Source of the DNA: Paenibacillaceae bacterium
GTDB lineage: Bacteria; Bacillota; Bacilli; Paenibacillales; CANHGK01
Assembly (NCBI GenBank): GCA_947460235.1
Contig: CANHGK010000003.1
Span: forward strand, 1 to 64,000
Direction of reading: 5' to 3'
Length of the DNA: 64,000 nt
Shown: one piece after another, positions 4,151 to 51,858 of the stretch
Layout of the letters: the number at the start of each line of letters is the position of its first letter
How positions within the stretch are numbered: position 1 is the stretch's first letter
Position numbers and translations under genes: made by a program
The notes under the pieces: generated by a model
What the model saw: only the letters and a program-made list of their open reading frames with translations
The model's database searches: none
Told to the model about the DNA's origin: nothing

Positions 4151-6571
4151 TTATTGTGTAATGTTCGCGGTTGTTGTATATGGTCGTAAGATATAGTTGG
4201 AAGCATCTGCTCCTGCCAACGACAAATTGTTTACACCCACAACTTTATTCGTACCAATTGCTAGACTATTGAATGTACCTTTTGCTTTAGCAAAATTCAA
4301 CGTGACCACTTCAACACCAAAAACATCGTTAATTTTTGCATTGGTAAAATTGAGTGATGCAATGTTATTTCCATCATACTTTTTATTCATTGCTGTGATT
4401 CCAGTTGCGTAGATTATTCGTTGTGTGATCGTTGCAGTTGTAGAATATGCCGCCAGTGTGTAGTTCGCTGCGTCTGCACCATTCAAAGTTAATCCGAGAA
4501 CTGGAATCACTTTTCCACTTCCAGCTGTTGCATTTGGGAATGCTGCAGTTGCTGCGGTCGTGTCAAGTGTCACGACATCATTTAGAACAACATCCAATAA
4601 TAATGCAGCGTTTGTTACTAATGTCGCTGACGTCGATTGGTCATATACTTTATTGGAAACCGATATATTCGAAGCAGAGACGGATTTTGGTGTAATGTTT
4701 GCCGTTGTTGTTGCATCGTTTACGCTGTAGTTTGCTGCATCTGCACCTGATAATGCAAAACCACTTATGGTAACTACTTTTGATGTTCCAACGTTTTTGT
4801 TGTTGAATACCCCAACGATTGCGGATTTATTCAAAGCAACGCTATCACCGTTTTCAACACCGCTAAGTGCTGCTGAAGCTGCATTTAACGTTGCAGCTGT
4901 TGTTGCGTTATAAACTTTGTTCGTTGCCGAAATCGAGATAACAGAAATGGCTTTTTTCGTGATGTTTGCAGTTGTCGTATATGCAGTTAAGGAATAGTTA
5001 CTTGCATCGATACCCGTTAACGCAAGACCTGTAACCGTTACTGTTTTTGCATTTGCAACATTTTTATTCGCGAATGTCCCAACTGCACTTGATGCATTCA
5101 AGGTAACGACATCACCGGGAACAACCCCAGACAATGCGCCAGAATCGCTATTTAATGTTGCTACTGTATTTCTATTATAAACTTTGTTTGAAGCCGTTAT
5201 ACCGCTAGCACTTATTGCTTTTTTTGTGATATTAGCTGATTTTGTATAGCTGTTCAACGAGTAATTTGCCGCGTCCGATCCTGTAATCGTCAATCCGGTA
5301 ACGGTAATTACTTTCGCGTTTCCAACGTTTTTATCCGCAAATGTCCCAACTGCTGCAGAAGTATCTACTGAAGCAACATCACCCAAAATCACACCGGACA
5401 ATGCACCAGATGCAACATTCAGCGTTGCAGATGTGTTCCCGTTGTAAACTTTATTGGAAACGGTAATACCAGTTGCAGAAATTGTTTTCGGCGTAATGTC
5501 TGCCGTTGCAAAATTATAAACTGCCACTTGATAATTGCCACCATCAATACCTGTTAATGCGGTTTGAATAGACACCGGTTTGCTCGTTCCAACATTTTTG
5601 TTATTAAACGTACCGACTGAATTTACTGTATCAATGCCAACAACATCTCCGCCGAGCACACCGAGCAAACTCGCTTGACTCATGTCAACCGTTGTTGTTG
5701 TCGTAGCATTATATGTTTTATTATTCGCTACTGGGGAAAGCACATGCAACGTCGCTTTATAAATATTTGCTGTTGTTGTGTATGCATTGAGTGCATAGTT
5801 TGATGCGTATGCCCCGTCGAGTGTCAATCCACCGATGGTCACCACTTTGGCAGTTCCCACATTTTTGTTTGAAAAGGCACCTGATTTACTACTTGTGTTT
5901 AAAGTAACGGTTTCGCCTCTTAATGCATTGGACAACGTAGCAAATGTTGTGTTCACTTCTGCAACCGTATTTGCGTTATACGTTTTATTAGAAGCTGTAA
6001 TACCATTAACGGTAAGTTTGTACGGTGTGATATCTGCTGTTGTGCTATAGGCATTCAACGTATAATTCCCTGCATCTGCACCGCCAAGCGATAACCCGCT
6101 AATTGCGATTGTTTTACCTGTTGCAACGTTTTTATCTGGGAAGGATCCTCCAATTGAACCCCGATTTAACGTTACGATATCTCCACTTTCAACCCCCGTC
6201 AACGTAGCTGAAGTTGATGTAATCACTGCTGTAGATGTTTGATCGTATATTTTATTAGCTACGGTAATACTTCCCGCGGTTACATTGATTGCTTTTGTAG
6301 TAATATTCGCAGAAACTGGAGCATATCCGTCTAAGGTGTAAAGATTAACATCAGAACCAACAAGTGCTAGACCTGTAATCGTTACAGCTTTTCCTGTTCC
6401 AACCGTTTTGCCTGCAAAAGTACCAGTGATCGTTGCGCTCGTGTCGAGTGAAACATCTTCTCCAGTAACCTTGCCTGCTAATGAATACCCACTAAGATCA
6501 AGCGTAGCTGAAGTTAACGCATTATACGTACGATTGTTTGCAACAATACCCGTTACCGTTACATGCGTTTT
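4151..6571 (-). repeat. Nine tandem ~80-aa YDG-like coding repeats
   Basis: Recurring motif NK-Y(N/D)-x-x-T counted nine times in the translation. Confidence 0.8.
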
Positions 6572-7384
6572 TCCGTCTACCTTTACTAAAGTAGTATTTC
6601 CTACGTTATTCAGCGTAGTGATTGCATCGTTGGTTACAGCATCTTTGATTGTGCCACTATTTAATGCAACTGAAGCTCCGACAGTTATGCCGTCTAAATC
6701 TGCGGTTCCGCGTGCAACAGGATAACGGAACAAAAGTGAAGACGAACCAGTGCCACTAACATACGTTGCGTTCACAATGCCGCCATCATTCAAAGTTACA
6801 GGGAACGATGGTGTACCCGAAACAAATACCGATTCACTAAAATTGACGGAAAAGTCTACGTTTTGACCTGCTGTGTATGTACCGTTACTTGGTGCAGTAA
6901 CAGAAGTAACGGTTGGATTAATCCCATCAACTTTCACAAATGTTGAATTACCAATACCATTTAATAACGTGTTTGAAGGCGTTCCACCGAGACCATCAAC
7001 ACTTCCGCCATTTAAATTTATTGTTGTAAGGATGTTGATTCCATCTGAATCTAGCTCACCTTGATTCACCGTATAGCGAAACGTAAGTGCTGAAGTGCCA
7101 CTTCCGTTAAAATAAATGGCATTTACCGTACCACCTGTGTTTAAATTAATTTGAACGATTGGAATACCCGTTACATATACGTCCTCACTGAAGTTAACCG
7201 TTAGATCCAACGTTTGTCCAAGTGAATACGTTTTATTTGCTGGCAAATTGACAGAGGTTGTTTGAGGTACAGAACTCGCACTTGCTGTAAACGAAATTGA
7301 GAAGAATACACTAAGTAGTAAAACTAAACTTAACACCCATTTAGATTTTGTAAAATTTGAATTTCCCTTACGATTTCCCATCAC
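4151..7384 (-). CDS. Large secreted YDG-type repeat surface protein
   Basis: Signal peptide; two Ig-like N-terminal repeats (NFSEDVYVTG / NFSESVFVSG) and nine ~80-aa repeats (NKxYNxxTxATL...GTFxNKNVGTxKxVTVxGLxLxGxDAxNYxLxxYTTTANIT). Confidence 0.85.
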   Translation of the reverse strand: MMGNRKGNSNFTKSKWVLSLVLLLSVFFSISFTASASSVPQTTSVNLPANKTYSLGQTLDLTVNFSEDVYVTGIPIVQINLNTGGTVNAIYFNGSGTSALTFRYTVNQGELDSDGINILTTINLNGGSVDGLGGTPSNTLLNGIGNSTFVKVDGINPTVTSVTAPSNGTYTAGQNVDFSVNFSESVFVSGTPSFPVTLNDGGIVNATYVSGTGSSSLLFRYPVARGTADLDGITVGASVALNSGTIKDAVTNDAITTLNNVGNTTLVKVDGKTHVTVTGIVANNRTYNALTSATLDLSGYSLAGKVTGEDVSLDTSATITGTFAGKTVGTGKAVTITGLALVGSDVNLYTLDGYAPVSANITTKAINVTAGSITVANKIYDQTSTAVITSTSATLTGVESGDIVTLNRGSIGGSFPDKNVATGKTIAISGLSLGGADAGNYTLNAYSTTADITPYKLTVNGITASNKTYNANTVAEVNTTFATLSNALRGETVTLNTSSKSGAFSNKNVGTAKVVTIGGLTLDGAYASNYALNAYTTTANIYKATLHVLSPVANNKTYNATTTTTVDMSQASLLGVLGGDVVGIDTVNSVGTFNNKNVGTSKPVSIQTALTGIDGGNYQVAVYNFATADITPKTISATGITVSNKVYNGNTSATLNVASGALSGVILGDVASVDTSAAVGTFADKNVGNAKVITVTGLTITGSDAANYSLNSYTKSANITKKAISASGITASNKVYNRNTVATLNSDSGALSGVVPGDVVTLNASSAVGTFANKNVANAKTVTVTGLALTGIDASNYSLTAYTTTANITKKAISVISISATNKVYNATTAATLNAASAALSGVENGDSVALNKSAIVGVFNNKNVGTSKVVTISGFALSGADAANYSVNDATTTANITPKSVSASNISVSNKVYDQSTSATLVTNAALLLDVVLNDVVTLDTTAATAAFPNATAGSGKVIPVLGLTLNGADAANYTLAAYSTTATITQRIIYATGITAMNKKYDGNNIASLNFTNAKINDVFGVEVVTLNFAKAKGTFNSLAIGTNKVVGVNNLSLAGADASNYILRPYTTTANITQ

Positions 7385-12169: not shown

Positions 12170-13453
12170 TCAGTTTGTAGGCGGCACATTCATGACGCCC
12201 ATAAATAACATCGTGTCGGATTTCGAATCATAGATCGTGTAAAAAAACGGCCGATTGACGCTCATCGTTACAGGATCTCTCGACATGACAGCGGTAGCAA
12301 TCATCTCAATCGCAGTCGCAGCCGCCGCTTCCGTTCCCTCTTCATTGACATTTATTTTTGACTGTTGAATCACTTGACTAATCGCAAGCGGTACCTTTGA
12401 TGTCGTCAACTTACTGAAGTCCGCTTTTATAAACGCTTGTTTGACCCCGAGCAATTTAAGAATAGGAATGAAATCAACGCGATTTGCCATTGTGAATTTT
12501 GGCATAGACAAATCAAGATCAATCTGTCGAAACTGCCCTTTCCAGCGTTGCCAATTCGCATCGGTGATCTGTTTTATTACATCAGATAGATCACCATTTT
12601 CTTTCGGTAAAAATACATACATCGACAAATTTCCATTTCCATAAGGCAACGAAATCGCCTGAAACGTTGGTTTTTCCAAATAGTTAATGTAAGCGGATGA
12701 ATGCATAAACGGAATGTTCTTCTCTTTACCACGATAATAGAATGGTTGGTCGAATGTACTTTCCACCTTAAAGGGCAATTGCCATTTTGCTTTGAAATAA
12801 AGCGTATTGATGATCATCATGACCGCCGACGAGTCGAGTGAATCAAATAATTTTGGAACGAGTTTGTTGGTTTTGTCACTTACCCAGTGATTGATCAAAT
12901 CTTTTGTGTTCACATCTGTAAAATCAACGTTACGTATTTCCGCCGAATTGACCGTTTTGTTTTTCGTTAAAAACGTTGGAATGATCGGGAAACTTTTTTG
13001 CACCCACAACGAATTCGCCATTTTAACGCTGATGGAAGCATCGGATGTAAGCAATTTTCTCAGTGAAAGTGCATACGCCAATTGCAACTGCGACTCGTCC
13101 AATTCATGAAACTGAAATGCCTTCGCAAATTCTTTTTTAGTTTGTCCGGCCGATACAGGATAGAGAATCGTAAATGCCGAATAAATACTGACAGGTGAGA
13201 CGATCGCATTCCCCTTAGAGAACTGCTCGGCGGACAACATTTTTTGTAATAGGCTGAAACTAAACACTCGTTCACGCGATTGTACCTTATGCTGTTCCAC
13301 ATCTAATAAAAGAGGTGATGATTTCTCCGCAAATGCCGGAATCGGTCGATACGGCTTTGTCATCGCGAAACTAGTCTCAAACAACATTAAAAAGCTTGTG
13401 AAAAAAAGTGCCACGATCAAACTCATTTTAACAATGAAACGCTCCATCACCAT
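12170..13453 (-). CDS. Secreted serpin (serine protease inhibitor)
   Basis: Serpin body plus hinge/reactive loop NVNEEGTEAAAATAIEMIATAVMSRDPVTMSVNRPFFYTIYD; signal-peptide-like N-terminus. Confidence 0.93.
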   Translation of the reverse strand: MVMERFIVKMSLIVALFFTSFLMLFETSFAMTKPYRPIPAFAEKSSPLLLDVEQHKVQSRERVFSFSLLQKMLSAEQFSKGNAIVSPVSIYSAFTILYPVSAGQTKKEFAKAFQFHELDESQLQLAYALSLRKLLTSDASISVKMANSLWVQKSFPIIPTFLTKNKTVNSAEIRNVDFTDVNTKDLINHWVSDKTNKLVPKLFDSLDSSAVMMIINTLYFKAKWQLPFKVESTFDQPFYYRGKEKNIPFMHSSAYINYLEKPTFQAISLPYGNGNLSMYVFLPKENGDLSDVIKQITDANWQRWKGQFRQIDLDLSMPKFTMANRVDFIPILKLLGVKQAFIKADFSKLTTSKVPLAISQVIQQSKINVNEEGTEAAAATAIEMIATAVMSRDPVTMSVNRPFFYTIYDSKSDTMLFMGVMNVPPTN

Positions 13454-13714: not shown

Positions 13715-13786
13715 TTTCGGTCGCGTTTCGGTGTCATTTCGGTTTTATTTCGGTACCGAAAAAAAGTGCTGCTTAATTGTTTCGGT
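13715..13786 (+). promoter_or_regulatory. Phased direct-repeat array: five TTTCGGT copies plus one inverted copy
   Basis: TTTCGGT at 13715, 13726, 13737, 13748 (11-bp period) and 13780; ACCGAAA at 13755 forms palindrome TTTCGGTACCGAAA. Confidence 0.7.
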
Positions 13787-13850
13787 GTCATATTCCACTC
13801 ATTATGTTACTGTTTCCTTTGTTAAAATATATAAAAGGAGAGAAACTAAA

Positions 13851-16800
13851 ATGAAAAAAATTGTATCCAAATTACTTTCAATCCTCTTAATGTTGAACGT
13901 AATGATGCCGTTTTTGGTAGCAAACGCTGCTGCAACCAATCCAAACGTGACGTTTTATGTTGATCAGTGCAAAACCACAACTGGTCAATCATGCTGGGTC
14001 GTAGGAGACTTTAGCAATTGGAGCACAACCGGAGGGATTGGCGGATTAAAGCTATTCACCAATCAAAATGGAGTTACGTATCCGAAATGGATGATGTCTA
14101 AATCATTTACTACAACTGCCATTCAGTTTAAGTTTGCTGTGGTGAATGATTCCACAGGTGCAATTGTTTCTTACGAGTCTTTAACCGCGAATCGCAGTTT
14201 AACACCAGTGGATGGCTCAACATATACAGCAACTTATGGTGTCGCAGGCGGAACAGTGGTAACACCAAGTGTTACAGCTACACCAACAAAAACGCCTGTA
14301 CCTACGGCTACTCCAATTGTGACGAGTGTGCCAACAGCGACACCTACAAAAACACCGATTCCAACAGCGACACCAACACCTGATCCAAAAATACCTGCGA
14401 TTACGTACACCACGGACAGTTCAGGTGGATATTATGACATTCGAGTTAAAATTACGGATTCAGATACAGGTCCAAGCAGTTTAACGATGACGGTAACTTC
14501 AAGTAACCAATCAATTGTTGCAGATAATAAACTCTCGTATGACAAAGTAAGTTCATATTACGATCGAATTGTTCGAATTCTATCGTTTGCAGGTGGATAT
14601 GGTCAAACGAATATAACAATCATGGTTTCTGATGGATCTCATGTTGGGTATGCAACGATTCCAATTATCATGAACGCGCCAACACCAACGCCGATACCTA
14701 CGGCAACACCAGTGCCTACGAAGACACCAGTTCCTACTGCAACACCAACACCAACACCAAAACCAACTGCAACACCTGTTCCAACTGCAACACCATCACC
14801 AACGCCGACACCGGTGCCAACATATAGTGTGCACTTATTTTATAAACCAACAATCTGGACTGAGGATACCGCGTATGCTTATGTGCTTGCGCAAACCGGT
14901 TTTGCAACAGGCGGTATTGCTCAATTTAACAACACCCCTGCCGCATATAAGCGCATGATGAAATCCAATAGCAATCCCGGATTTTTTGAAACCACCGTTA
15001 CGTACCAAGGAATTTATGGTGCACGGGTTCAGTTTACAAATGGCGATGGCATTTGGGACAGCAGTGATCAATATGGAATTACAAAAGGCGACGTGACTGT
15101 ATTGGGTCAAAAGGTATATGGGGGAACCCCTGCGCCTGCATTAAAAACGCCATCTCCTTCGCCAACTATTGCACCAACCGATAAACCGGTTCCTCCTAAT
15201 ACCATCGTCGTTTATTATCGCAATAGTAACTGGTGGTATGATGGTGGTCAAAGTTTCCGCGATCCGTATAATCCAGGTATCAATAATGAAGCGGTATCCA
15301 TTATTTATGGATTTGCATCTACTCCGAATCCTGCAGCGCCATCGAGCACACCTAGCATTGCATGGAAACCAAGCGGAGCTGGAACGAGTACCATTGGAAT
15401 GATTCATACGGGATATGGAGGGGCAACACTTTCTAAATCAAAAAAATATGAAGGTTATTGGGAAGGTGAAATCACCATTCCTACTGGAGCAGACCCCCGC
15501 GTGAATTTGATGTTCCATAATTATTTTGGCATATTAGATGATGGTGGTAATAAGCAAACTCCTTATTATAACCAATGTTATCCGCCAGCTTGTACGTTTA
15601 CTGATGGTGTATGGAACGCAGGCCCTCCGTCCAATTCGCCTTCTCTTTCGCCAGCGCCAATGACTGCCATTCAGATGGTTTCTGGAAGTAAGCATCACTT
15701 AATTCTTCGTTCGGATGGAACAGTTTGGGCATGGGGAGATAACACGTACGGACAGCTTGGCATTGGCACGGATGTCTTTTGGGTACAAAAAGGCAAACCA
15801 ATTGCTACACCAGCACCAGTCACCTATGTCGATGAAGCACATGCAGTACGTATTGTTGGGCTTAAAAACATCAAACAATTGTTTGCAGGAGCGAACTCAT
15901 CGTTTGCACTACTCGGCGATGGCACACTCATGGCATGGGGACAAAATGATTGCGGTCAGCTTGGCGATTTAAACTTTAATCTAAATTATGGCGATTTTGA
16001 TGCCAGAGTATATTCCCCGATGATCAGTCGTTCGCCTAAAGACGCTTATGGAAAACCCATTTGGAATACGAATTCAGATTATGCAATTAAACAAGTTGCT
16101 TCAGAAGTTGAAAACACGCATGTGCTATTAAACAACGGACTTGTTTATTCGTTTGGAAAAGATGGTGGACGATACAAACTTGGAGGCGTTTATCCAAATA
16201 CCGTTCGTTTTGGGCCGCAATTACTCAAAGAAGTTCGTCCCGTTACAATGAAAGCGGTCGCGGTGCCTTATGATCTTGTACTTGATAAAGTACCTTCTCC
16301 ATTTAACATCGCAATGAAAGCTTTTGGTGTTATTTTGAAAACGGTGATCCCAGATTTATCATCTTGTAATGTATTTTGCGTGACCATTCCATATGCGATT
16401 GATGGACCTGTTGATATCATTCCGCAAAATAATGGGCATTGGAGCACGGGCTTTGTTCCAGATCCGAGAAAACCACTTGAGTTAAATGCGACAAATTCGA
16501 TTGCTGCGTTTGTAGCAAACGTCGCAAATCAAGGGCAATATAACATTCGGTTAAAAGATACTGGCATCAATGTGATTTCAAATGGAGATTTACCAGAGAT
16601 TGCACTTGGTTCAGCGGTCAACTCTCCTACGTCTTATTTATCACCAGATGGAATCTACACAATTACTGGATTTTCAACGAAGACGCTACTTCCAAACAAT
16701 AGCGCTTCAAGTCCGAACCCATCAAAAATTGTAGATATGCGTTCCGGTCTTCATCACACCATTTTACTTCGCGCGGATGGCCATGTTTCCGCATTGGGAG

Positions 16801-17399
16801 ATAACACACAAGGACAAGTCGGATCCAGTAAGTCATATGGTTCTAGTTTATTTTCAGAAATTAGCAATGTAATTGGCATGGACAATATCGTATGTAAGCA
16901 AATCGCAGCAAGTGATACAGGTTCCGCATGTTTGGATCAAAGCGGAAAACTGTATGCATGGGGAACGATTCCAAATGTAATTTCCAGAGATCAAGGGGTA
17001 CAACTCATTACCAACAATGTACAAAGTATTGGCTCAAAATCATTCAATGGACTTCTCATTGCGCAGTACATTGCGCAAGTGAATCAACGAACGTGGTATT
17101 ATGTCGGTGCAAACGAATCTGTTCTAAATGAGCGAATGAAACAAGCATTTGCAGATGGTGCCGCGCAGTGGAGCATGGACGCGGATGCACGGGTAAGCTA
17201 CATCCGATCAGATGGAACGGCTTGGGTGACGAGCGACAGCGACTACAAACCAGGCCCAATGAAAATTGGTGTTCCGTACCGAAATGATGTGATGACCTGG
17301 GTTAGTCAAATTGGAACCAGTGTTCGTCTCACAAATGCAGGGATTGATTGGTTCAATCATCCTACGGGTTGGCTTCCAACGGTAAACCCAACTCCTTAA
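13851..17399 (+). CDS. Large secreted starch-binding-module/RCC1-repeat protein
   Basis: ATG 13851 after AAAGGAGAG; signal peptide; CBM20-like N-terminus; TP-rich linkers; CBM26/CBM25-like modules (YSVHLFYKPTIW..., NTIVVYYRNSNWW...); RCC1 repeats (SGSKHHLILRSDGTVWAWGDNTYGQLGIG). The ORF track starts at 13731. Confidence 0.85.
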   Translation: MKKIVSKLLSILLMLNVMMPFLVANAAATNPNVTFYVDQCKTTTGQSCWVVGDFSNWSTTGGIGGLKLFTNQNGVTYPKWMMSKSFTTTAIQFKFAVVNDSTGAIVSYESLTANRSLTPVDGSTYTATYGVAGGTVVTPSVTATPTKTPVPTATPIVTSVPTATPTKTPIPTATPTPDPKIPAITYTTDSSGGYYDIRVKITDSDTGPSSLTMTVTSSNQSIVADNKLSYDKVSSYYDRIVRILSFAGGYGQTNITIMVSDGSHVGYATIPIIMNAPTPTPIPTATPVPTKTPVPTATPTPTPKPTATPVPTATPSPTPTPVPTYSVHLFYKPTIWTEDTAYAYVLAQTGFATGGIAQFNNTPAAYKRMMKSNSNPGFFETTVTYQGIYGARVQFTNGDGIWDSSDQYGITKGDVTVLGQKVYGGTPAPALKTPSPSPTIAPTDKPVPPNTIVVYYRNSNWWYDGGQSFRDPYNPGINNEAVSIIYGFASTPNPAAPSSTPSIAWKPSGAGTSTIGMIHTGYGGATLSKSKKYEGYWEGEITIPTGADPRVNLMFHNYFGILDDGGNKQTPYYNQCYPPACTFTDGVWNAGPPSNSPSLSPAPMTAIQMVSGSKHHLILRSDGTVWAWGDNTYGQLGIGTDVFWVQKGKPIATPAPVTYVDEAHAVRIVGLKNIKQLFAGANSSFALLGDGTLMAWGQNDCGQLGDLNFNLNYGDFDARVYSPMISRSPKDAYGKPIWNTNSDYAIKQVASEVENTHVLLNNGLVYSFGKDGGRYKLGGVYPNTVRFGPQLLKEVRPVTMKAVAVPYDLVLDKVPSPFNIAMKAFGVILKTVIPDLSSCNVFCVTIPYAIDGPVDIIPQNNGHWSTGFVPDPRKPLELNATNSIAAFVANVANQGQYNIRLKDTGINVISNGDLPEIALGSAVNSPTSYLSPDGIYTITGFSTKTLLPNNSASSPNPSKIVDMRSGLHHTILLRADGHVSALGDNTQGQVGSSKSYGSSLFSEISNVIGMDNIVCKQIAASDTGSACLDQSGKLYAWGTIPNVISRDQGVQLITNNVQSIGSKSFNGLLIAQYIAQVNQRTWYYVGANESVLNERMKQAFADGAAQWSMDADARVSYIRSDGTAWVTSDSDYKPGPMKIGVPYRNDVMTWVSQIGTSVRLTNAGIDWFNHPTGWLPTVNPTP

Positions 17400-21770: not shown

Positions 21771-21889
21771 AATTAAAATTCTCCTTTCACAGAAAGCGAC
21801 GTTGGACAATATTGCTTCTAAACTATTATAATAATCAATAGTGGTCGTGCATAGGTGACCAACGTTAATCATGAACAGGAGTGGAACAC

Positions 21890-22423
21890 ATGGCATTGCA
21901 AACTGCACCTGAGCGGAACGGTGTTGCAACATTTAAAGGCAACCCGATTACACTTTTGGGTCAAGAAGTTAAAGTGGGCGATCAAGCTCCAGATTTTTCA
22001 GTTCAAAAGAACTTGCTAGAAGAAGTTACGCTTGCTTCTTATGAAGGCAAAATTAAATTGATTAGCGTAGTTCCTTCCTTGGACACTGGCGTTTGTGATG
22101 CTCAAACACGCCGTTTCAACGAAGAAGCAACGAACCTTGGCGATAACGTTGTTGTTTTGACCGTTAGTATGGACCTTCCTTTTGCACAATCTCGTTGGTG
22201 TGGGGCTGCAGGTGTTGAACGCGTGATTACGCTTTCCGACTACAAAAACCGCAATTTTGGCGAAACGTATGGCGTATACATTAAAGAATTCGGTTTGTTA
22301 ATGCGTTCCGTGTTTGTCGTCGATTCATCCAATAAAGTGACATACGCAGACGTTTTAACAGAAATGACTGAACACCCGAACTACGAAGCAGCGATTGCGG
22401 CTGTTAAAGAATTAATCGGTTAA
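21890..22423 (+). CDS. tpx: Thiol peroxidase (Tpx, peroxiredoxin family)
   Basis: [34 protein letters not shown]. Confidence 0.93.
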
Positions 22424-22458
22424 TCTGACATCCTCGAATAACATAGGAGGTCCAACCA

Positions 22459-23538
22459 ATGGGCTCATCTCTACGAAACAGATTTCGTTACCTTCGAATC
22501 GGTCGATGGACACTGTTGGGAGGGATGAGTCTGTTGTTGTTTTTTTCAGCGGCCATACCTTTGCATGCAGATGATCGAGTAAATGAAGGCGCACTTGTAT
22601 TCAAAAATTCCTGTCAAATATGTCATGGAGTTAGCGGAAAAAATGGCCCTTTCTCGATTGACCTTGTCGGACAAGAATTTGTAAGTACTTTTCACACAAA
22701 TGCAGATCTATTTAATTTTGTATCAAAAAACATGCCAAGATCAAATCCAGGAAGTTTATCTAATGAAGATTATTTAAATGTAGTTTCATACATCCAAAAC
22801 TTAAACGGCATTACCGTGTCAGATGATCAATTGCTTGCTTCAGCAACGCCACGTCAGTCGGTTATAACGAAAGCAACGCCAAATTTAACCTCGACAGTCA
22901 CGCCGTCATCGATGTTCACTTTTCAAGCAACAGTCACACCTAACGTAACAACACCGGTTTTTATTGTGACCACAACACCCAGTCCACATGTAATCACAGA
23001 CATCATTGAACCCGTTCATACACCATCAGATATCGATGGGTTAGTACAATCGGATGCGATCCGCAAGTCCATTACAAACGGTTGGATACCTGTGCTGTCC
23101 GAAAAAGGAAAAACGTTATTTCAACCATCGCAACCAATCACACGTGGCCAGTTTATTGCTGCAGTCATTGCCGCAAATGGGATTATTCCTCCTGTTCTTG
23201 CCAAATCATTAGCCTACGATATTGCATCAAACCCCGCGCGCGATGCAATCAACTATGCAATTTCAAAAAAATGGATTGTGCCGACGAAATCACAAACCAT
23301 ATTACCTAAACAACCGATAACTCGTGCTGATGCTGCAGTTTTCGCCCAAAAAGTGTGGAAACTTAAATCAATCATTTCGAAAACATTGAAAGACGTCCCA
23401 AAAACCGACCCTCGCGCTGGTGCAGTTGGTGCGCTCGTAAAACAAGGTGGACTTCGAATTAGCTCGAATCGAGCGAAACCATTAGATTCACTGTCTCGTG
23501 CAGATGCTGCATGGATGTTATCAAAACTTGTGAAGTAG
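22459..23538 (+). CDS. Secreted cytochrome c domain fused to S-layer homology (SLH) domains
   Basis: Signal peptide; CQICH heme motif and candidate axial Met (NMPRSNPGSLS); TP-rich linker; three SLH-like segments with ITRGQFIA, ITRADAAVFAQ, LSRADAAWML. Confidence 0.85.
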   Translation: MGSSLRNRFRYLRIGRWTLLGGMSLLLFFSAAIPLHADDRVNEGALVFKNSCQICHGVSGKNGPFSIDLVGQEFVSTFHTNADLFNFVSKNMPRSNPGSLSNEDYLNVVSYIQNLNGITVSDDQLLASATPRQSVITKATPNLTSTVTPSSMFTFQATVTPNVTTPVFIVTTTPSPHVITDIIEPVHTPSDIDGLVQSDAIRKSITNGWIPVLSEKGKTLFQPSQPITRGQFIAAVIAANGIIPPVLAKSLAYDIASNPARDAINYAISKKWIVPTKSQTILPKQPITRADAAVFAQKVWKLKSIISKTLKDVPKTDPRAGAVGALVKQGGLRISSNRAKPLDSLSRADAAWMLSKLVK

Positions 23539-23546
23539 TATCATCA

Positions 23547-23604
23547 AAAAAGGCTGTCTGATCTGTAGATCATGTTGATCTACAAGTCAGATAGCCTTTT
23601 GTTC
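23547..23604. terminator. Bidirectional terminator
   Basis: aaaaaaggctgtctgatctgtagatca / tgatctacaagtcagatagccttttgtt hairpin. Confidence 0.75.
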
Positions 23605-23606
23605 TG

Positions 23607-24368
23607 CTAGTTCTGATTTATTTCCATGAGTACTCTACCACTCAACCAAAATAACCCATTAACTACTCCGCCTGTTTTTGGTACACCTTGCACCAAATCC
23701 GGATCAGCGACCACATCAATTTCACCGCCATACGTAGATATACATAAATGCCAATACGCTTGTCCAGTAAACGGATTGATTTTCATTTTGCACGTTTTAA
23801 TCCAACCAGAAAAAACCGCTTCCGCCGTTTCTTCGGTTATATGTTCATCAATCATTAACAGTCCACTTGGAATAAATGACTCCACTGCCCGCTTTGCGCC
23901 AGGTGGTTGATCATCGTAAAAATCTTTTTCCGACGCATAACAGGTAACTTGATGCGCAAATCCAACCAATTGAACATAAACTTCAGGATTTGAGATCAAT
24001 TTGTCACTCATCAGCGCAAAATCCGGCATTTCGAACAACATCGGATATGCTCCAGGTAATTCCTGATTTTCTTCAGGTAAAGCCCAAGCCTTCACTGATC
24101 CATCCAGTGAGTGATTATCTGCTGGATATGTGTTTGACACGCGTAATCGAAAAACACTTTGTCCCTTAAAATGTGGATTCAACCCGATCAACTGATGCGA
24201 ATGATCAGATTGTACACTAAGTACAAAACCAGATTCGTCCTCATAAATAATATAAAGGCCTTTGTCCGCGTGGTGAACTTTCCCCATTTTTGAGAACGTA
24301 ATTGCCAATTCAACAAACTCGTCCGGCTTGGTTACCGGAAAACCGATATCAGTGAAATGATTTGCCAC
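23607..24368 (-). CDS. Hypothetical cytosolic protein
   Basis: 253-aa ORF, no recognised motif. Confidence 0.7.
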   Translation of the reverse strand: MANHFTDIGFPVTKPDEFVELAITFSKMGKVHHADKGLYIIYEDESGFVLSVQSDHSHQLIGLNPHFKGQSVFRLRVSNTYPADNHSLDGSVKAWALPEENQELPGAYPMLFEMPDFALMSDKLISNPEVYVQLVGFAHQVTCYASEKDFYDDQPPGAKRAVESFIPSGLLMIDEHITEETAEAVFSGWIKTCKMKINPFTGQAYWHLCISTYGGEIDVVADPDLVQGVPKTGGVVNGLFWLSGRVLMEINQN

Positions 24369-44286: not shown

Positions 44287-46374
44287 TTATTTTATTAAAG
44301 CGTTCGTATCAATAATCAATGCCGTTTGACCATTACCGAGAATGGTTGCTCCCATGATTGCAAATGTATCGCCTTCAAGGTATTCACCAAGTGTTTTAAT
44401 AACGATTTCTTGTTGGGCAATAAAGTCATCGACCGATAACGCAACCAATTTATCACCTTTTCGAATTACTGCCAATTCCGTTTCATCTTCGTCTTCTTCA
44501 TTGAAATCCGGAAGATCAAATAGTTTTGATAAGAAGATAATCGGAATTACAGATTTACGATAGTCAACCATCGGTGTTCCGTGAACGGTACGAATATTTT
44601 TCTTCTCAACAACAAATGTTTCAACAATCGAAGAGAGTGGAATCGCATAAGTTTCACTACCCGCTTTTATTAACATTGCAGGAATAATTGACAACGTAAG
44701 CGGCAATCGAATGATAAATTTCGTTCCTTTGCCCATCACGGAATCAACGATAACGTCTCCGCCAATTCCTGTAATTTTACTTTTTACAACATCTAAACCT
44801 ACGCCTCGACCAGAAACGTCTGTAATTGCTTCGGCAGTACTGAAACCCGATGCGAAAATCAATTGGTGAATTTCGTCTTTCGTCATTTTCTTTGCCTGAT
44901 CTGGCGAAACCAAACCTTTTTGAACTGCTTTACTTAAAACACGCTCTGGATTAATCCCGCGGCCATCTTCCTCAATTTCGATAAAAACATCGTTACCGGC
45001 ATTAAAGGCACGCAAGTGAATAATCCCTGTTTCGGATTTTCCGACTTTTTTACGTTCACTAAGTGTTTCTAACCCGTGGTCAACTGCGTTACGCAACATA
45101 TGAACCAAAGGATCACCTAATTCCTCAACAACCGTTTTATCTACTTCTGTATCTGCACCAGATACAATGAGGTCAACTTTTTTATCCAATGATTTCGCAA
45201 GATCACGAACCATCCGCGGGAACCGCTGGAATACAGTGTCAACAGGTACCATCCGAAGTTTCATAACAACGTTTTGTAGGTCGGATGTAATCCGAGTCAT
45301 ATGTTCGACAGTTTCGTTCAAATCATTGTTGCCAATTTTTTGTGCCAACTGTTCTAACCGAACACGGTCAATCAGTAACTCTGAAAATAAGTTCATCAGT
45401 GCATCCAAACGTTCAACATCGACACGAATCGTCCGCGATTGAACCGCTTGTCCACCGCCACCTGCAGCTGCTTTAGGTGTTACAACTTCAGCAATTTTTG
45501 GTGATTCTGAGTTTGTTGCAGTCTGTAATGCAACTTCTTCAGCTTTCTTACCTCCACCGCGAACAATGGCACTATAATCTCCCGTTTCGAGTGTGCCTAA
45601 TCCATTCGTATCGAGTGTTACAACACGAGCAGCATCAATTTCTGAAATGCTCATAATCATTTTCTCGACGCCTGCAGCATCTGATTTTGTTAAGTAATAC
45701 ACTGAGAAATATTTCTCGAATTTCTCTGCTTCAATATCTTGAACGGTCGGATGGGAATGAATAATTTCACCATTGCGCTCCAACTCATTAAAGACCATAT
45801 AGGCACGTGCAGCTTTAAGCATACAATTGTCACGGACTGCAACTTCAGCAAAAAATACAGCATAGCCTGCTTCAATCGAGTTTTTCATGACGCCAATTTC
45901 GAACTCATTGACTTTCACTTCATCCAACGATTGATCAGCCGCTGCAGCTTTTACCGGTTCTGCCGATGCGGCAGAAGCACCTGGACCGTTAATATTTCCT
46001 GCCAATATCCCCTTCAAGCTTTTCAAAACTTCGCGAACGTCTGCTTTACCTGTACCACCGCCGACGATATCTTGAACCATCTTTTCCAAGGAGTCTACAC
46101 CTTTGAACATAACATCAAAAATATAGTTATTCATGGATAATTTTCGGTCACGAACGAGGTACAACACGTTCTCCATTTCATGGGTCAACGAAGCAAGATC
46201 CTCGAACCCCATCGTCGCAGACATCCCTTTGAGGGTGTGCGCCGATCGGAAAATGTCATTAACAATGTTAATGTTACTCGGGTCCTGCTCGAGTTTCATG
46301 AAGTTATCATTGATGGCTTGCAGATGCTCTTGCGATTCATCGATAAACATACTTAGATACTGATTGTTTTCCAT
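44287..46374 (-). CDS. cheA: Chemotaxis histidine kinase CheA
   Basis: HPt AHTLKG, H-box-type LGDPLVHMLRNAVDHGLE, C-terminal CheW-like domain. Confidence 0.97.
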   Translation of the reverse strand: MENNQYLSMFIDESQEHLQAINDNFMKLEQDPSNINIVNDIFRSAHTLKGMSATMGFEDLASLTHEMENVLYLVRDRKLSMNNYIFDVMFKGVDSLEKMVQDIVGGGTGKADVREVLKSLKGILAGNINGPGASAASAEPVKAAAADQSLDEVKVNEFEIGVMKNSIEAGYAVFFAEVAVRDNCMLKAARAYMVFNELERNGEIIHSHPTVQDIEAEKFEKYFSVYYLTKSDAAGVEKMIMSISEIDAARVVTLDTNGLGTLETGDYSAIVRGGGKKAEEVALQTATNSESPKIAEVVTPKAAAGGGGQAVQSRTIRVDVERLDALMNLFSELLIDRVRLEQLAQKIGNNDLNETVEHMTRITSDLQNVVMKLRMVPVDTVFQRFPRMVRDLAKSLDKKVDLIVSGADTEVDKTVVEELGDPLVHMLRNAVDHGLETLSERKKVGKSETGIIHLRAFNAGNDVFIEIEEDGRGINPERVLSKAVQKGLVSPDQAKKMTKDEIHQLIFASGFSTAEAITDVSGRGVGLDVVKSKITGIGGDVIVDSVMGKGTKFIIRLPLTLSIIPAMLIKAGSETYAIPLSSIVETFVVEKKNIRTVHGTPMVDYRKSVIPIIFLSKLFDLPDFNEEDEDETELAVIRKGDKLVALSVDDFIAQQEIVIKTLGEYLEGDTFAIMGATILGNGQTALIIDTNALIK

Positions 46375-46391
46375 TCTGAATCGGCACCTCC

Positions 46392-47492
46392 TCAGTTATC
46401 AACTTTCTCGATCAGTTTCTTAGCGATATCATATAGTGGTAACACATAGTCCGCACATTTCAATTCAACAGCTGCACGCGGCATACCATATACGATACAC
46501 GTTTCTTGCGATTCGGCAATGGTCGTTATCGCTCCAGATGATTTCAGCATTTGCATACCTTTTGCTCCGTCGCTTCCCATGCCAGTCATAATAACAACAT
46601 GTTGTTTTAATTCAGTAGCATTTATTAACGATTCGAACATGACATCAACGGACGGGCGGTGACCGTTGCGTGGTTCTTCTTCCGTCAACTTAATTCTGTA
46701 TTGTCCACCTTCACGGCGGATTTTCATTTGATATCCCCCAGGAGCCAAGTAGGCCATTCCTGTCTGTAAAATCATTCCTTCTTCCGCTTCAACCACACCG
46801 ATTTGGCAAGCACCGTCTAGGCGAAGTGCCAATGATTTTGTGAATTTAGGCGGCATATGTTGGACGATGACAATGGGTGCATTAAAGTCACCGGGGATAT
46901 CTTTAAGTACTTCGAGTAGCGCTTTCGGACCACCAGTCGATGTTCCAATGGCTACAATCTGTTTTAATACAGATGATCCACCTTTGGACTGTTCAGCTAG
47001 TTTAGATGGTATTCTCGATTGAACAATGGTGTTTGTTTGTTTTTTTGAATCATTCGACAACCCTGAACTTGGAGATGCCGGTTTTTGCATTTTCATGTTT
47101 ACACGAACTGCTACATGTAACTTCTCCAAAAGTTCCTCTTTTACCTTGCTAATCTCAAATGCGAATTGACCTGTCGGTTTACCAATAAAATCAATCGCAC
47201 CAAGCGCGAGTGCTCTCATCGTCTCTTTCGAACCTTCATGGGTCAAACTACTCAACATTAGTACTGGAGTTGGTTGCATTTCCATGATTAAACGCAATGC
47301 TTCGACACCGTCCATGATCGGCATTGTCACATCCATGGTAATTGCATCCGGATTTAACAACTTCGTTTTTTCAATCGCCTCTTGACCATTTTTTGCGGTG
47401 TCAACAACCTTAAAGGATGGATCACTATTAATAAAATCGCTAATCATCCTGCGCATTAACGCGGAATCGTCTACTACTAATATTTTGTACAT
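46392..47492 (-). CDS. cheB: Protein-glutamate methylesterase CheB
   Basis: Receiver domain plus GTSTGGPKAL methylesterase motif. Confidence 0.97.
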   Translation of the reverse strand: MYKILVVDDSALMRRMISDFINSDPSFKVVDTAKNGQEAIEKTKLLNPDAITMDVTMPIMDGVEALRLIMEMQPTPVLMLSSLTHEGSKETMRALALGAIDFIGKPTGQFAFEISKVKEELLEKLHVAVRVNMKMQKPASPSSGLSNDSKKQTNTIVQSRIPSKLAEQSKGGSSVLKQIVAIGTSTGGPKALLEVLKDIPGDFNAPIVIVQHMPPKFTKSLALRLDGACQIGVVEAEEGMILQTGMAYLAPGGYQMKIRREGGQYRIKLTEEEPRNGHRPSVDVMFESLINATELKQHVVIMTGMGSDGAKGMQMLKSSGAITTIAESQETCIVYGMPRAAVELKCADYVLPLYDIAKKLIEKVDN

Positions 47493-47525
47493 TTCCCACC
47501 ATCCTCCGTACCGCGAATTTTTAGA

Positions 47526-48413
47526 TCAAGAAGGATTTTGAATTAATCTTATCATCCGGTTCAAAAAGCCTTTCATCCCCGAATTCATATGTTCTTTTTC
47601 AGGAACTGAAACAACCGTGCGAATATATTGGTCTGCAATGCGCCCCATTTGTTTTGCTGCTGCGGTATTAGGAAAAGCAACCGCAAAAGGCACTTGTTTT
47701 TTCACAGCTTTTTGTACATTTGGATCTTCTGGCAAATAACCGAGAATCGGAATTTCCATTTTCAAAAACTGTTTCGCAACCAACGTAATTTTGTCAGCTG
47801 TATACTTCCCTTCAAAATCATCACCCGAACGGTTTACAACAAGATGGAACTCTACATCATGTTTCATCGATTGAACCATTTTGATTATTGCATAAGCATC
47901 TGTAATCGATGTTGGTTCAGGAGTCGTAACAAGCACCGTTTCATGTGCTGATATAATAAATTTCAACGACTCTTTCGATAAACCTGCACCCAAATCAAAA
48001 AGGACGAAATGATATTTTCCGTTCAGTTGCATAACTTGATCCGAAAAGTACTGTGCATCCGCTTCTGTCCAAAATGCAAGTTCACGAAATCCCGAACCAC
48101 CGGCGATAAAATCAAGTTCTTGGTATCCGGTATGTATAATTTCATGAATTGTTTTTTGCCGTTTCAACAAGTGATATAAATTAAACTTTGGCGTTAGACC
48201 CATCAATACATCAATATTTGCGAAGCCGTTATCTGCGTCGAACACAAGCACCTTAAATCCTCTTGTCCGAAGTTGTAGTGCAAAATTAAGCGTAAAATTT
48301 GATTTCCCTACGCCGCCTTTTCCACTTGTAACCGCAATTACGCGAGTTTGAATCGCTGCGGGATCTGCCTGATTCGATATCAACTGTCTTAATTGTTGGG
48401 CTTGGTCACTCAT
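47526..48413 (-). CDS. flhG: MinD/ParA-type ATPase FlhG
   Basis: SGKGGVGKSNFTLN; adjacent to flhF. Confidence 0.95.
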   Translation of the reverse strand: MSDQAQQLRQLISNQADPAAIQTRVIAVTSGKGGVGKSNFTLNFALQLRTRGFKVLVFDADNGFANIDVLMGLTPKFNLYHLLKRQKTIHEIIHTGYQELDFIAGGSGFRELAFWTEADAQYFSDQVMQLNGKYHFVLFDLGAGLSKESLKFIISAHETVLVTTPEPTSITDAYAIIKMVQSMKHDVEFHLVVNRSGDDFEGKYTADKITLVAKQFLKMEIPILGYLPEDPNVQKAVKKQVPFAVAFPNTAAAKQMGRIADQYIRTVVSVPEKEHMNSGMKGFLNRMIRLIQNPS

Positions 48414-49828
48414 TCGGATCTCTCTCCTAAAATCAATTCCACGATTTTGTGTTTATCAAACGGATAAATATCATTTGGTACATTTTGTCCGTTTGCAATG
48501 TACGACGGCGGCAGGTCGAATTCGCGGATGATGTTTACAATTGAACCGTATGATTCGGTTTCGTCAATTTTTGTAAAAAGAACTCGATCGATTTTGAAGG
48601 CCGAAAAATTAGAAGCAATTGCTTTCATGTCCTTGTACTTTGTCGTAAGGCTGAGCACAAGAAACGTCAAACTGTTTTGCGATTGCTTTAATAAATTATT
48701 CAATTCAGAAACATATAATGAATTCCTAAAATTCCGACCTGCAGTATCCATAAAAACTAGGTCACAATCTTCAAGATTTTTCATTGCTTTTGGTAAATCT
48801 GTCGGTGAATTCACGACCTCTATTGGTACATTCAAAATTGAAGCGTATGTTTTTAGTTGATCAACTGCAGAAATTCGGTACGTATCTGATGTGATAAAAC
48901 CGACTTTTTTCTTATTTTTCAATACTTGTTCAGCAGCGAGCTTAGCAAGTGTTGTTGTTTTACCAACACCCGTCGGACCAACAAAGTGAATCACTCGATA
49001 ATCCGTCAACGTTACCGCAGGTTCTACACTTGTTTGCAAAAGTGCTGTAAGTCTTTGTTTCATAGACTTCAAGATCGATACAGCAGAAGATTCGTCTTTC
49101 AAATTGATTGATGCATCTTCCATCATTGCACGTGTCAATTCATTAACGATCTGTTCATCAATTTCTTGATCAACGAGTCTGTCACGAATACTCATAAGTG
49201 CAGGAGGCAACTCTTCTAATTGACGTTCTTGCTTCATTGTTTTCAACATTTCGCGCATTTGACGAATTTCCTGAAGCAAATTCGGATCTGTTACATTATC
49301 CGGCTTCTTAGATTGGTCCGTCGATTCTACAACCTTCTCTACTGCCACATTTGAAGTTTGTTTCATCGGTTGTTGAGACATAACAGCTTGTGCTGACATC
49401 TGCCCACTCTTGGATTGATTATAAAATTGTGCAGCAACATTAACAGGTGCTGTTGGAATTTGTGAAATTATTGGCGATGCACTACCACCGACTGCCATTT
49501 GATTATATGGATCAACTGCAGCAGGTTGTGGCATCGAAGAACCCAAAATACGAGCTGCATCAAACGCTGCAATACTGCCATTGTTTGCCGCTTGTTGTAG
49601 CACGCTAGAAAGCATGTCGCGCGCTGCATTTTGAGCAGATTGCGCATTTTGCGCTGGTTGTGGATCACGCGCTGCAATGACTTCAAATTTCCTCTTGCGG
49701 AACATCCCTAAAAATCCACCAACAAATATTTCTTTTTGATTTAAAATGACTGCATCTTTGCCAAGTTCACGCGTAATTTGTTTCATTGCGTCAGGCATTG
49801 AATCCGCAAGAAATTTTTTAATCTTCAT
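48410..49828 (-). CDS. flhF: Flagellar SRP-like GTPase FlhF
   Basis: MKIKKFLADSMPDAMKQI; GPTGVGKTTTLAKLAA. Confidence 0.96.
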   Translation of the reverse strand: MKIKKFLADSMPDAMKQITRELGKDAVILNQKEIFVGGFLGMFRKRKFEVIAARDPQPAQNAQSAQNAARDMLSSVLQQAANNGSIAAFDAARILGSSMPQPAAVDPYNQMAVGGSASPIISQIPTAPVNVAAQFYNQSKSGQMSAQAVMSQQPMKQTSNVAVEKVVESTDQSKKPDNVTDPNLLQEIRQMREMLKTMKQERQLEELPPALMSIRDRLVDQEIDEQIVNELTRAMMEDASINLKDESSAVSILKSMKQRLTALLQTSVEPAVTLTDYRVIHFVGPTGVGKTTTLAKLAAEQVLKNKKKVGFITSDTYRISAVDQLKTYASILNVPIEVVNSPTDLPKAMKNLEDCDLVFMDTAGRNFRNSLYVSELNNLLKQSQNSLTFLVLSLTTKYKDMKAIASNFSAFKIDRVLFTKIDETESYGSIVNIIREFDLPPSYIANGQNVPNDIYPFDKHKIVELILGERSE

Positions 49829-51858
49829 AAATTAACCACTCCAACACTCTGAATTTCCACCGTCGGTTCAAGCTCGCTATATGAAAGAATGGGGAGGTCC
49901 GGAATGGTGCGTTCCAACAATTGACGTATATACATACGAATTGTCGGTGAGGCTAACAAGATCGGTTGTTGACCTTCTTGTATCATACGACTCATCTGCT
50001 CGTTAATTTTCTGGAAAAATTGCTGCGATGTTACTGGATCTAATGCGACGTAACTTCCTTGCTCTGTTTGTTGAACACTTTCAGCGACTTTCTTTTCTAA
50101 CTTTGGTCCAATAGTCATCACTTGCAAGAAGTTTGAACCATTCGTATATTGTTGCGTCAATTGTCTCGAAAGCGACTGACGAACATATTCTGTTAAAATT
50201 TCTGGATCTTTCGTGTAATTCCCGTAATCGGCAAGCGACTCCATAATCATCGAAAGATTTCTGATCGATACTTTTTCACGCAACAACTTCGCCAAAATCT
50301 TCTGAATATCACCAACAGTCAAAATACTTGGGACAACTTCTTCAACAACAGCAGGTACTTGTTCTTTCAAGTTATCTACTAATTGTTTTGTTTCTTGTCT
50401 ACCAAGAAGCTCATGAGCGTGTTTTTTTATGATTTCAGTCAAATGTGTTGCGACGACTGAAGGTGGATCAACGACCGTATATCCAGATAATTCTGCACGT
50501 TCTTTCATATCCTCGTCAACCCATAAAGCTGGCAAACCAAATGCAGGTTCTGTCGTTGGAATTCCATGGATTGAATCATCATCATAACCAGGACTCATTG
50601 CCAAGTAATGATTAAGTAGTAATTCTCCGCGCGTAACGATATTTCCTTTTATTTTGATGATATATTCGTTTGGCCGCAACTGGATATTGTCTCGAATTCG
50701 TATAACTGGAACAATTAAACCCATCTCTAGTGCGCATTGCCTTCGAATCATAATGACCCGATCTAGCAAATCTCCACCTTGATTTGTATCTGCTAATGGA
50801 ATTAACCCATAACCAAATTCAAACTCAATCGGATCAACCTGTAGTAAGTTTACTACACTTTCTGGATTTCGTACCTCTTCAATTTCTTTTTCTTCTTGAA
50901 TTTGATTAACATCTACTTGTTGTCGATCCAAGTTTTGTTGCAAACGGTATCCTGCATATGCCAAAAGTCCTGCCATCGGCATGGTTGCATATATTTGAAT
51001 CGGAGTGAAAATTCCAAGCGCTAAAATTGTTCCAGCTACGATATAAAGCATTTGGGGGTACTTCAAAATCTGTTCTGTCAAATCGCTCGCCAGATTACCC
51101 TCAGTGGATGACCTTGTCACGATTAAACCAGAAGCCACTGAAATGAGCAATGCTGGAACTTGGCTAACCAATCCATCGCCGATCGTTAAAATCGAAAATG
51201 TTTTGGCTGCTTCTGCAAAAGCCATATCATGCATCACAATGCCAACGATAAATCCGCCAACAAGGTTGATGATCAAAATGATGATACTGGCAATTGCATC
51301 ACCTTTTACGAACTTCGTTGCTCCGTCCATTGCCCCGTAAAAATCTGCTTCACGCGTAATTTTTGAGCGTCGTTCCTTTGCTTGTTGTTCATTGATTAAG
51401 CCTGCGTTCATATCCGCATCAATTGCCATTTGTTTTCCTGGCATCGCATCAAGTGTGAACCGTGCTGCAACTTCAGCCACGCGTTCCGAACCTTTCGTAA
51501 TAACGATGAATTGCACGACAACAAGAATCAAGAACACGATAAATCCAACTACAATATTACCTCCTGCCACGAACTCACCGAAGGTTTGCACAACACTTCC
51601 CGCTTCCGCTTTCAACAAAATATTTTTAGTTGTCGAAATATTTAAAGCTAACCTAAACAATGTCGTAATAAGAAGCAAAGATGGAAAAATTGAGAATTCT
51701 AACGCTTCACTCGTATTCATGGAAATCAAGATAATCATCAAAGACAAAGAGATATTAATGATCAATAAAAAGTCAATTAAAATGATGGGCATTGGCAACA
51801 CGAGCATCAACACGATTCCGATTACACCTATTAAAACGACAAAATCGCGTATTTTCAT
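49825..51858 (-). CDS. flhA: Flagellar export protein FlhA
   Basis: Full-length FlhA. Confidence 0.97.
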   Translation of the reverse strand: MKIRDFVVLIGVIGIVLMLVLPMPIILIDFLLIINISLSLMIILISMNTSEALEFSIFPSLLLITTLFRLALNISTTKNILLKAEAGSVVQTFGEFVAGGNIVVGFIVFLILVVVQFIVITKGSERVAEVAARFTLDAMPGKQMAIDADMNAGLINEQQAKERRSKITREADFYGAMDGATKFVKGDAIASIIILIINLVGGFIVGIVMHDMAFAEAAKTFSILTIGDGLVSQVPALLISVASGLIVTRSSTEGNLASDLTEQILKYPQMLYIVAGTILALGIFTPIQIYATMPMAGLLAYAGYRLQQNLDRQQVDVNQIQEEKEIEEVRNPESVVNLLQVDPIEFEFGYGLIPLADTNQGGDLLDRVIMIRRQCALEMGLIVPVIRIRDNIQLRPNEYIIKIKGNIVTRGELLLNHYLAMSPGYDDDSIHGIPTTEPAFGLPALWVDEDMKERAELSGYTVVDPPSVVATHLTEIIKKHAHELLGRQETKQLVDNLKEQVPAVVEEVVPSILTVGDIQKILAKLLREKVSIRNLSMIMESLADYGNYTKDPEILTEYVRQSLSRQLTQQYTNGSNFLQVMTIGPKLEKKVAESVQQTEQGSYVALDPVTSQQFFQKINEQMSRMIQEGQQPILLASPTIRMYIRQLLERTIPDLPILSYSELEPTVEIQSVGVVNL

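Follow-up and report, generated by a model that had tools for sequence, protein, structure and literature searches.

A monohaem cytochrome c joined to three SLH repeats in a Paenibacillaceae bacterium: a candidate electron carrier tethered in the cell envelope

Introduction

What would a Gram-positive bacterium do with a single haem c joined to a wall-binding module in one exported protein? The question is raised by a gene at 22459..23538 on the forward strand of the window, by which we mean the whole 64,000-nucleotide stretch of DNA analysed here. The window lies on contig C3, in a genome of 2.72 Mb that is 99.2% complete. Of the genomes sampled, the host is the sole member of its family; Paenibacillus belongs to the same order. 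Bacillus subtilis offers familiar examples of small class I carriers that stay outside the membrane, its cytochromes c-550 (CccA) and c-551 (CccB), found beside a caa3 oxidase. Those two proteins are retained by a transmembrane helix or a lipid anchor, in contrast to the wall-binding module of the window protein, and to our knowledge lipids or membrane helices are what retains every small cytochrome c described from Gram-positive bacteria.

An initial annotation made from the sequence proposed that the window protein is anchored at the S-layer, that it serves extracellular or trans-wall electron transfer or peroxide chemistry, and that it may be co-transcribed with the thiol peroxidase gene tpx just upstream. 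Here we combine domain searches, structural models, comparison with relatives and the respiratory gene content of the host, and arrive at a different reading of its probable function.

The gene and its transcription

The reading frame is intact, with 359 codons followed by a stop, and encodes a protein of 359 aa in which the Pfam profiles for SLH and for cytochrome c both score above cut-off, so that neither domain is a chance match. A ribosome-binding site read from the sequence, AGGAGG (22445..22450, +), lies 8 nt 5' of the ATG. The gene starts 35 nt past the stop of tpx (21890..22423, +), and the assignment of the latter as a thiol peroxidase is borne out by Pfam Redoxin (93.6 bits) and NCBIfam PRK00522 (223 bits against a cut-off of 123). 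Tpx has no apparent signal peptide.

The suggested co-transcription with tpx is a possibility. A consensus scan gave one weak sigma-70-type promoter-like site 5' of tpx (TGGACA-18-TATAAT, 21803..21832, +; 11/12 positions) and no promoter-like site in the gap between the two genes. Beyond the second gene, RNA folding of positions 23535-23620 (-36.7 kcal/mol, z -7.5) revealed a strong 53-base hairpin with a 5' A-tract and a 3' T-tract (23548..23600, +), which the consensus scan had overlooked; it is probably a terminator common to the cytochrome c-SLH gene and the convergent gene at 23607-24368 (-). Because promoter-like sites in the region are fewer than shuffled expectation, the site before tpx adds little, and the two genes possibly form a two-gene transcription unit.

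Other genes of the window are of interest in their own right. The product of one at 13731-17399 (+), 1222 aa long, combines RCC1 repeats and a stretch rich in Pro and Thr with a CBM20 starch-binding domain, which is unusual for a bacterial protein. The gene at 4151-7384 (-) encodes 1077 aa in which the YDG domain (PF18657, 409 bits) is matched in nine stretches, and there is a Serpin-family protein (330 bits), uncommon in bacteria, at 12170-13453 (-). CheA, FlhA and FliK belong to one run of flagellar and chemotaxis genes (44287-51858 and 61068-62624, both -), by which the host is probably motile.

Export signal and haem domain

Residues 1-38 (22459..22572, +) have the appearance of a signal peptide, with an Arg-rich start, a hydrophobic core and a candidate cleavage site after LHA38; the peptide might also stay uncleaved and act as an anchor. 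It is followed by a class I monohaem cytochrome c domain (residues 40-119; 22576..22815, +), recognised by Cytochrome_CBB3 (PF13442, 29.8 bits against a cut-off of 27) and by Cytochrom_C (PF00034, 22.9 bits against 21.3). The sole CXXCH of the protein, C52QICH56, falls in invariant columns of a 15-row alignment, as does Met92 within NMPRSNPGSL, a loop of the form NMPxxxPGSL, where it is the candidate sixth, distal ligand. Haem would be attached covalently at the CXXCH motif. Against a profile of relatives, which itself includes the window sequence, the domain scores 113.5 bits. In Foldseek the modelled domain gave a tentative match to cytochrome c6, with a TM of 0.63 at an E value of about 0.1, parts of it being modelled with pLDDT below 50.

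Linker and SLH module

The haem domain is connected to the rest of the protein by a Thr/Pro-rich flexible linker (about residues 122-189; 22822..23025, +); the 69 residues 122-190 include 16 Thr and 9 Pro. AlphaFold2 models this linker, some 60 residues, as largely disordered, with pLDDT below 50 for residues 131-185. The C-terminal part (residues 190-359; 23026..23535, +) is a three-repeat SLH module that scores 48.6 bits against the Pfam cut-off of 20.8, and 26.8 bits for a single repeat. Pfam recognises two of the repeats. Alignment and AlphaFold2 model both show the third, and in the model the module forms a three-repeat spindle of high confidence. Its best PDB matches in Foldseek are Sap-SLH of Bacillus anthracis (3pyw, TM 0.82) and SpaA-SLH of Paenibacillus alvei (TM 0.77-0.82). 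The architecture first proposed is thus confirmed, coordinates included, namely a signal peptide, a single CXXCH with its candidate Met, a TP-rich spacer and three SLH repeats in a module that passes the profile threshold.

The residues of the module that are known to bind ligand tell another story than its fold. Like SpaA and Sap, the window protein has the spindle, in its case from a model, and keeps the arginines of the TR motif (TRAE) in all three repeats (R229, R289 and R347), but Gly29 and Trp13, which help SpaA and Sap to bind the pyruvylated polymer, are missing from every repeat. The place of Gly29 is taken by V212, P275 and a gap or I, and that of Trp13 by V196, P259 and P318; a direct alignment to Sap also puts P275 at the glycine of repeat 2. 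Repeat 3, the alignment of which is less sure, has a GG sitting 2-3 residues off the expected Gly29 place. By comparison, Gly29 is found in 31 of the 40 aligned repeats of the genome's other SLH proteins, three of the repeats that lack it being gaps, and together with Arg43 in all 66 SLH repeats of the 22 relatives described below, which retain every SLH ligand residue but Trp13 of repeat 2.

SpaA shows no detectable binding once its two working grooves both lack Gly29, and anchoring of Paenibacillus alvei SlhA likewise requires Gly29 (PMC6081394). Because Gly29 and Trp13 are absent from all three repeats of the window protein, canonical anchoring of the module to pyruvylated wall polymer is doubtful, and firm anchoring at the S-layer is not supported. 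The module appears to have kept its fold and its arginines and to have lost the ligand signature known from other SLH proteins. It may bind weakly or bind a different ligand, or else the protein is held otherwise, for example by an uncleaved signal peptide.

Relatives of the cytochrome c-SLH protein

The architecture is not unique to the window genome. Among 399 genomes of the order, 22 further genomes, all of one family, encode a monohaem cytochrome c-SLH protein, each with three SLH repeats. Carriers include Paenibacillus piri, P. rigui, P. thalictri, P. agricola and P. mesophilus as well as one Paenibacillaceae metagenome assembly. In a set of 400 genomes from the class, 26 others gave weaker matches, and SLH repeats are missing from those of their loci that were inspected (L207-L225). 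On plasmid sequences the related proteins are short cytochromes only, none of which spans the whole query.

The window protein has the domain order of the Paenibacillus family, whose members carry, behind a signal peptide, a single class I haem domain containing NMPxxxPGSL and then three SLH repeats, and share with it 30-41% identity in the haem domain. It differs from them in its linker of about 60 aa, which in the alignment is absent or almost so in the relatives, in the lost Gly29 and Trp13, and in its gene neighbours. In 19 fusion loci compared over 16 kb each, a DUF1054 gene is found in 15 and a gene for a small secreted protein in 15, mostly just upstream of the fusion gene; at the window locus neither DUF1054 nor the secreted helical protein stands beside the gene, and tpx is upstream instead. 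As tpx occurs in none of the 19 compared loci, these show no conserved link of the fusion to tpx. On these comparisons the window copy seems best described as a divergent form of a cytochrome c-SLH architecture common in one group.

The secreted neighbour in Paenibacillus is an exported, charged and probably helical protein of about 250 aa (L058 6874-7632, with equivalents in 15 loci), with two repeats resembling IAxxKGISxxxLI and no match to a Pfam or NCBIfam family above cut-off. In another member of the order (G002:C3:23520-23720; loci L014 and L077), the same haem domain is joined to Cu_amine_oxidN1 (105 bits), another envelope-type module, in place of SLH.

The window and Paenibacillus fusions may have arisen once or independently: in a tree of 87 haem domains over 86 columns a single SLH clade is not rejected (AU p 0.55), and the window row, a short domain on a long branch, is not firmly placed. 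The NMPxxxPGSL loop also extends beyond the fusion proteins, to lipoprotein cytochromes c of Neobacillus and Sulfobacillus with 35-46% identity in the haem domain over about 70-90 aa. These differ in having a lipobox, by which they would be held by lipid at the membrane, and no SLH module.

An architecture already widespread and characterised was one outcome that, by the initial annotation, would refute it. Widespread it is, within one family of the order, but no characterisation was found: the literature covered, with subscription papers mostly outside its scope, yielded no description of a monohaem cytochrome c with SLH repeats. The component domains are known, and their combination, common in one group, is apparently unstudied.

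Respiration, haem c and wall display in the host

The CsaB pyruvyl transferase is encoded in the genome, above the equivalog cut-off of TIGR03609 (229.8 against 213.1 bits), from which it follows that SLH-based display exists in the host cell; there are 37 SLH matches in about 18 genes, that is, in about 17 besides the window gene. System II haem c maturation is represented by ResB; its neighbours are a cytochrome c assembly protein and a thioredoxin resembling ResA. One gene cluster encodes a Rieske protein, cytochrome b, QcrC, CtaC, COX1, COX3, COX4 and CtaG.

In searches with PF13442 and PF00034, class I cytochrome c domains above cut-off were found in QcrC, CtaC and the window protein only. 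Judged from these profiles, the window protein appears to be the genome's only free small class I cytochrome c carrier. This is unusual among the order genomes surveyed. We counted short cytochromes, defined as open frames of less than 200 aa with a class I domain, in 48 genomes of the order, all counts being lower bounds. Two of the 48 had no class I match at all; at least one short cytochrome frame was present in at least 22 of the 24 order-mates that have some match and no fusion, and in all 22 genomes with the fusion. That the fusion replaces other small cytochromes as a general rule is thereby refuted, as all 22 Paenibacillus-group carriers show short cytochrome frames too. In Paenibacillus, where the fusion coexists with other small cytochromes, it would not be the default carrier.

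The genome also has a single LPMO10 protein. Its gene, an AA10 LPMO gene at G000:C4 (L179:3401-5656, -), encodes 751 aa with T/P linkers and a chitinase-like C-terminal part, and the gene adjoining it encodes long TPVVTS repeats.

Discussion

Our preferred explanation, to which we give close to an even chance, is that the window gene encodes an exported protein with one haem c supplied by System II, which stays in the cell envelope and carries single electrons as an attachment to the bc/caa3 chain. The protein would be exported and receive its haem from the System II machinery; the C-terminal SLH fold, its ligand binding altered or weak, would keep the protein in the zone of the wall, and the haem domain would be mobile on its long disordered linker. 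It probably exchanges electrons with the haem c domains of QcrC in the bc-type complex and of CtaC in the caa3 oxidase, or with another redox protein outside the membrane, and its role may be to transfer electrons from QcrC to CtaC or from an outside donor to CtaC. We infer haem attachment, location, partners and direction of electron flow.

The fusion would fill the slot of a free carrier because the genome, unlike most of the order-mates examined, shows no other small class I cytochrome c, and a carrier role towards CtaC is the most economical reading for the same reason. The linker may matter here, since a single haem fixed at the outer wall cannot alone span the wall. Several points count against such a carrier: the cytochrome c-SLH gene has no genetic linkage to the respiratory genes, retention of the window protein in the wall is uncertain on its residues, QcrC and CtaC, each with a haem c of its own, may pass electrons directly, and the fusion of Paenibacillus occurs beside other small cytochromes. 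A more specific form of the proposal is that an aerobic monoderm has its one free cytochrome c tethered to the wall, with an SLH spindle of changed glycan specificity and a linker long enough to reach the membrane complexes, the carrier being kept by the wall rather than by a lipid or a helix. This we regard as a rather unlikely extension.

The rival that survives best, although we think it too rather unlikely, is that the SLH module no longer binds wall polymer. The cytochrome c would then be secreted, or anchored in the membrane by its N-terminus, with an SLH fold that is passive or repurposed, for example for another glycan. It draws on the loss of Gly29 and Trp13 from all three repeats, set against the retention of Gly29 in most repeats of the genome's other SLH proteins and in every repeat of the relatives, and on the need for Gly29 in SlhA anchoring in P. 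alvei. Plain decay is hard to reconcile with the three kept arginines and the fold modelled with high confidence, and the GG near the expected place in repeat 3 tempers the case further.

The extracellular or trans-wall electron transfer of the initial annotation, in which membrane electrons would reach minerals or electrodes via S-layer haems, gained no independent support and appears improbable. It has in its favour that cytochrome c and SLH are joined in one exported protein, that CsaB and the other SLH genes are present, and that the Paenibacillus relatives keep nearly all SLH ligand residues. Yet the window copy has lost ligand residues and has one haem, and the class I profile searches, with three domains in the genome, reveal nothing like a series of haems leading through the wall. 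Such transfer would call for several haems and further components, which did not appear in this analysis of class I domains. The surface cytochromes of Thermincola, the Gram-positive precedent as cited in PMC4137172, are likewise haem proteins at a Gram-positive wall but carry many haems per protein.

More remote still is a defensive role in the envelope, against peroxide or nitric oxide, in which the haem protein would work together with thiol peroxidase from a common operon. The short spacing, the lack of a promoter-like site between the genes in the scan and the hairpin after the second gene would suit such an operon, and peroxide chemistry has no support beyond this adjacency. Tpx, however, lacks an export signal while the cytochrome is exported, and tpx is missing from the 16-kb surroundings of the relatives' genes. 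A haem with an axial Met is six-coordinate and closed, and poorly suited to peroxidase chemistry, and the Met is conserved here.

Donation of electrons to secreted copper enzymes such as AA10 LPMOs is the least probable of all: the nearest single-domain solved relatives are X183 cytochromes, which come from extracellular redox proteins linked to polysaccharides (8q1w from Teredinibacter, E 6e-4; Cbp2D 7b21 with a profile), and the host's LPMO10 protein has a chitinase-like part and a similar T/P linker style, but LPMO10 is found in 0/22 genomes of the fusion-bearing relatives against 137/399 genomes of the order, which contradicts an LPMO partner. X183-bearing proteins were once thought to feed LPMOs; a Cellvibrio X183 domain can reduce an LPMO slowly, and those of Teredinibacter failed to reduce their cognate LPMO in a published test (PMC10916295). 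X183 domains (Cellvibrio Cbp2D, Teredinibacter) do resemble the window protein as single-haem His/Met domains within modular extracellular proteins, and differ in being joined to carbohydrate-binding and other redox domains and in belonging to Gram-negative bacteria.

An envelope-tethered carrier remains our preferred reading of the window protein. In the copy described here nature appears to have kept the SLH fold and arginines while the other residues for the pyruvylated polymer are gone, and it tests the reach of the published SLH anchoring rules. If electron carriers of a whole family were retained by a wall-binding module, this would be a third means beside lipids and membrane helices, and would bear on how redox proteins work inside a thick wall.
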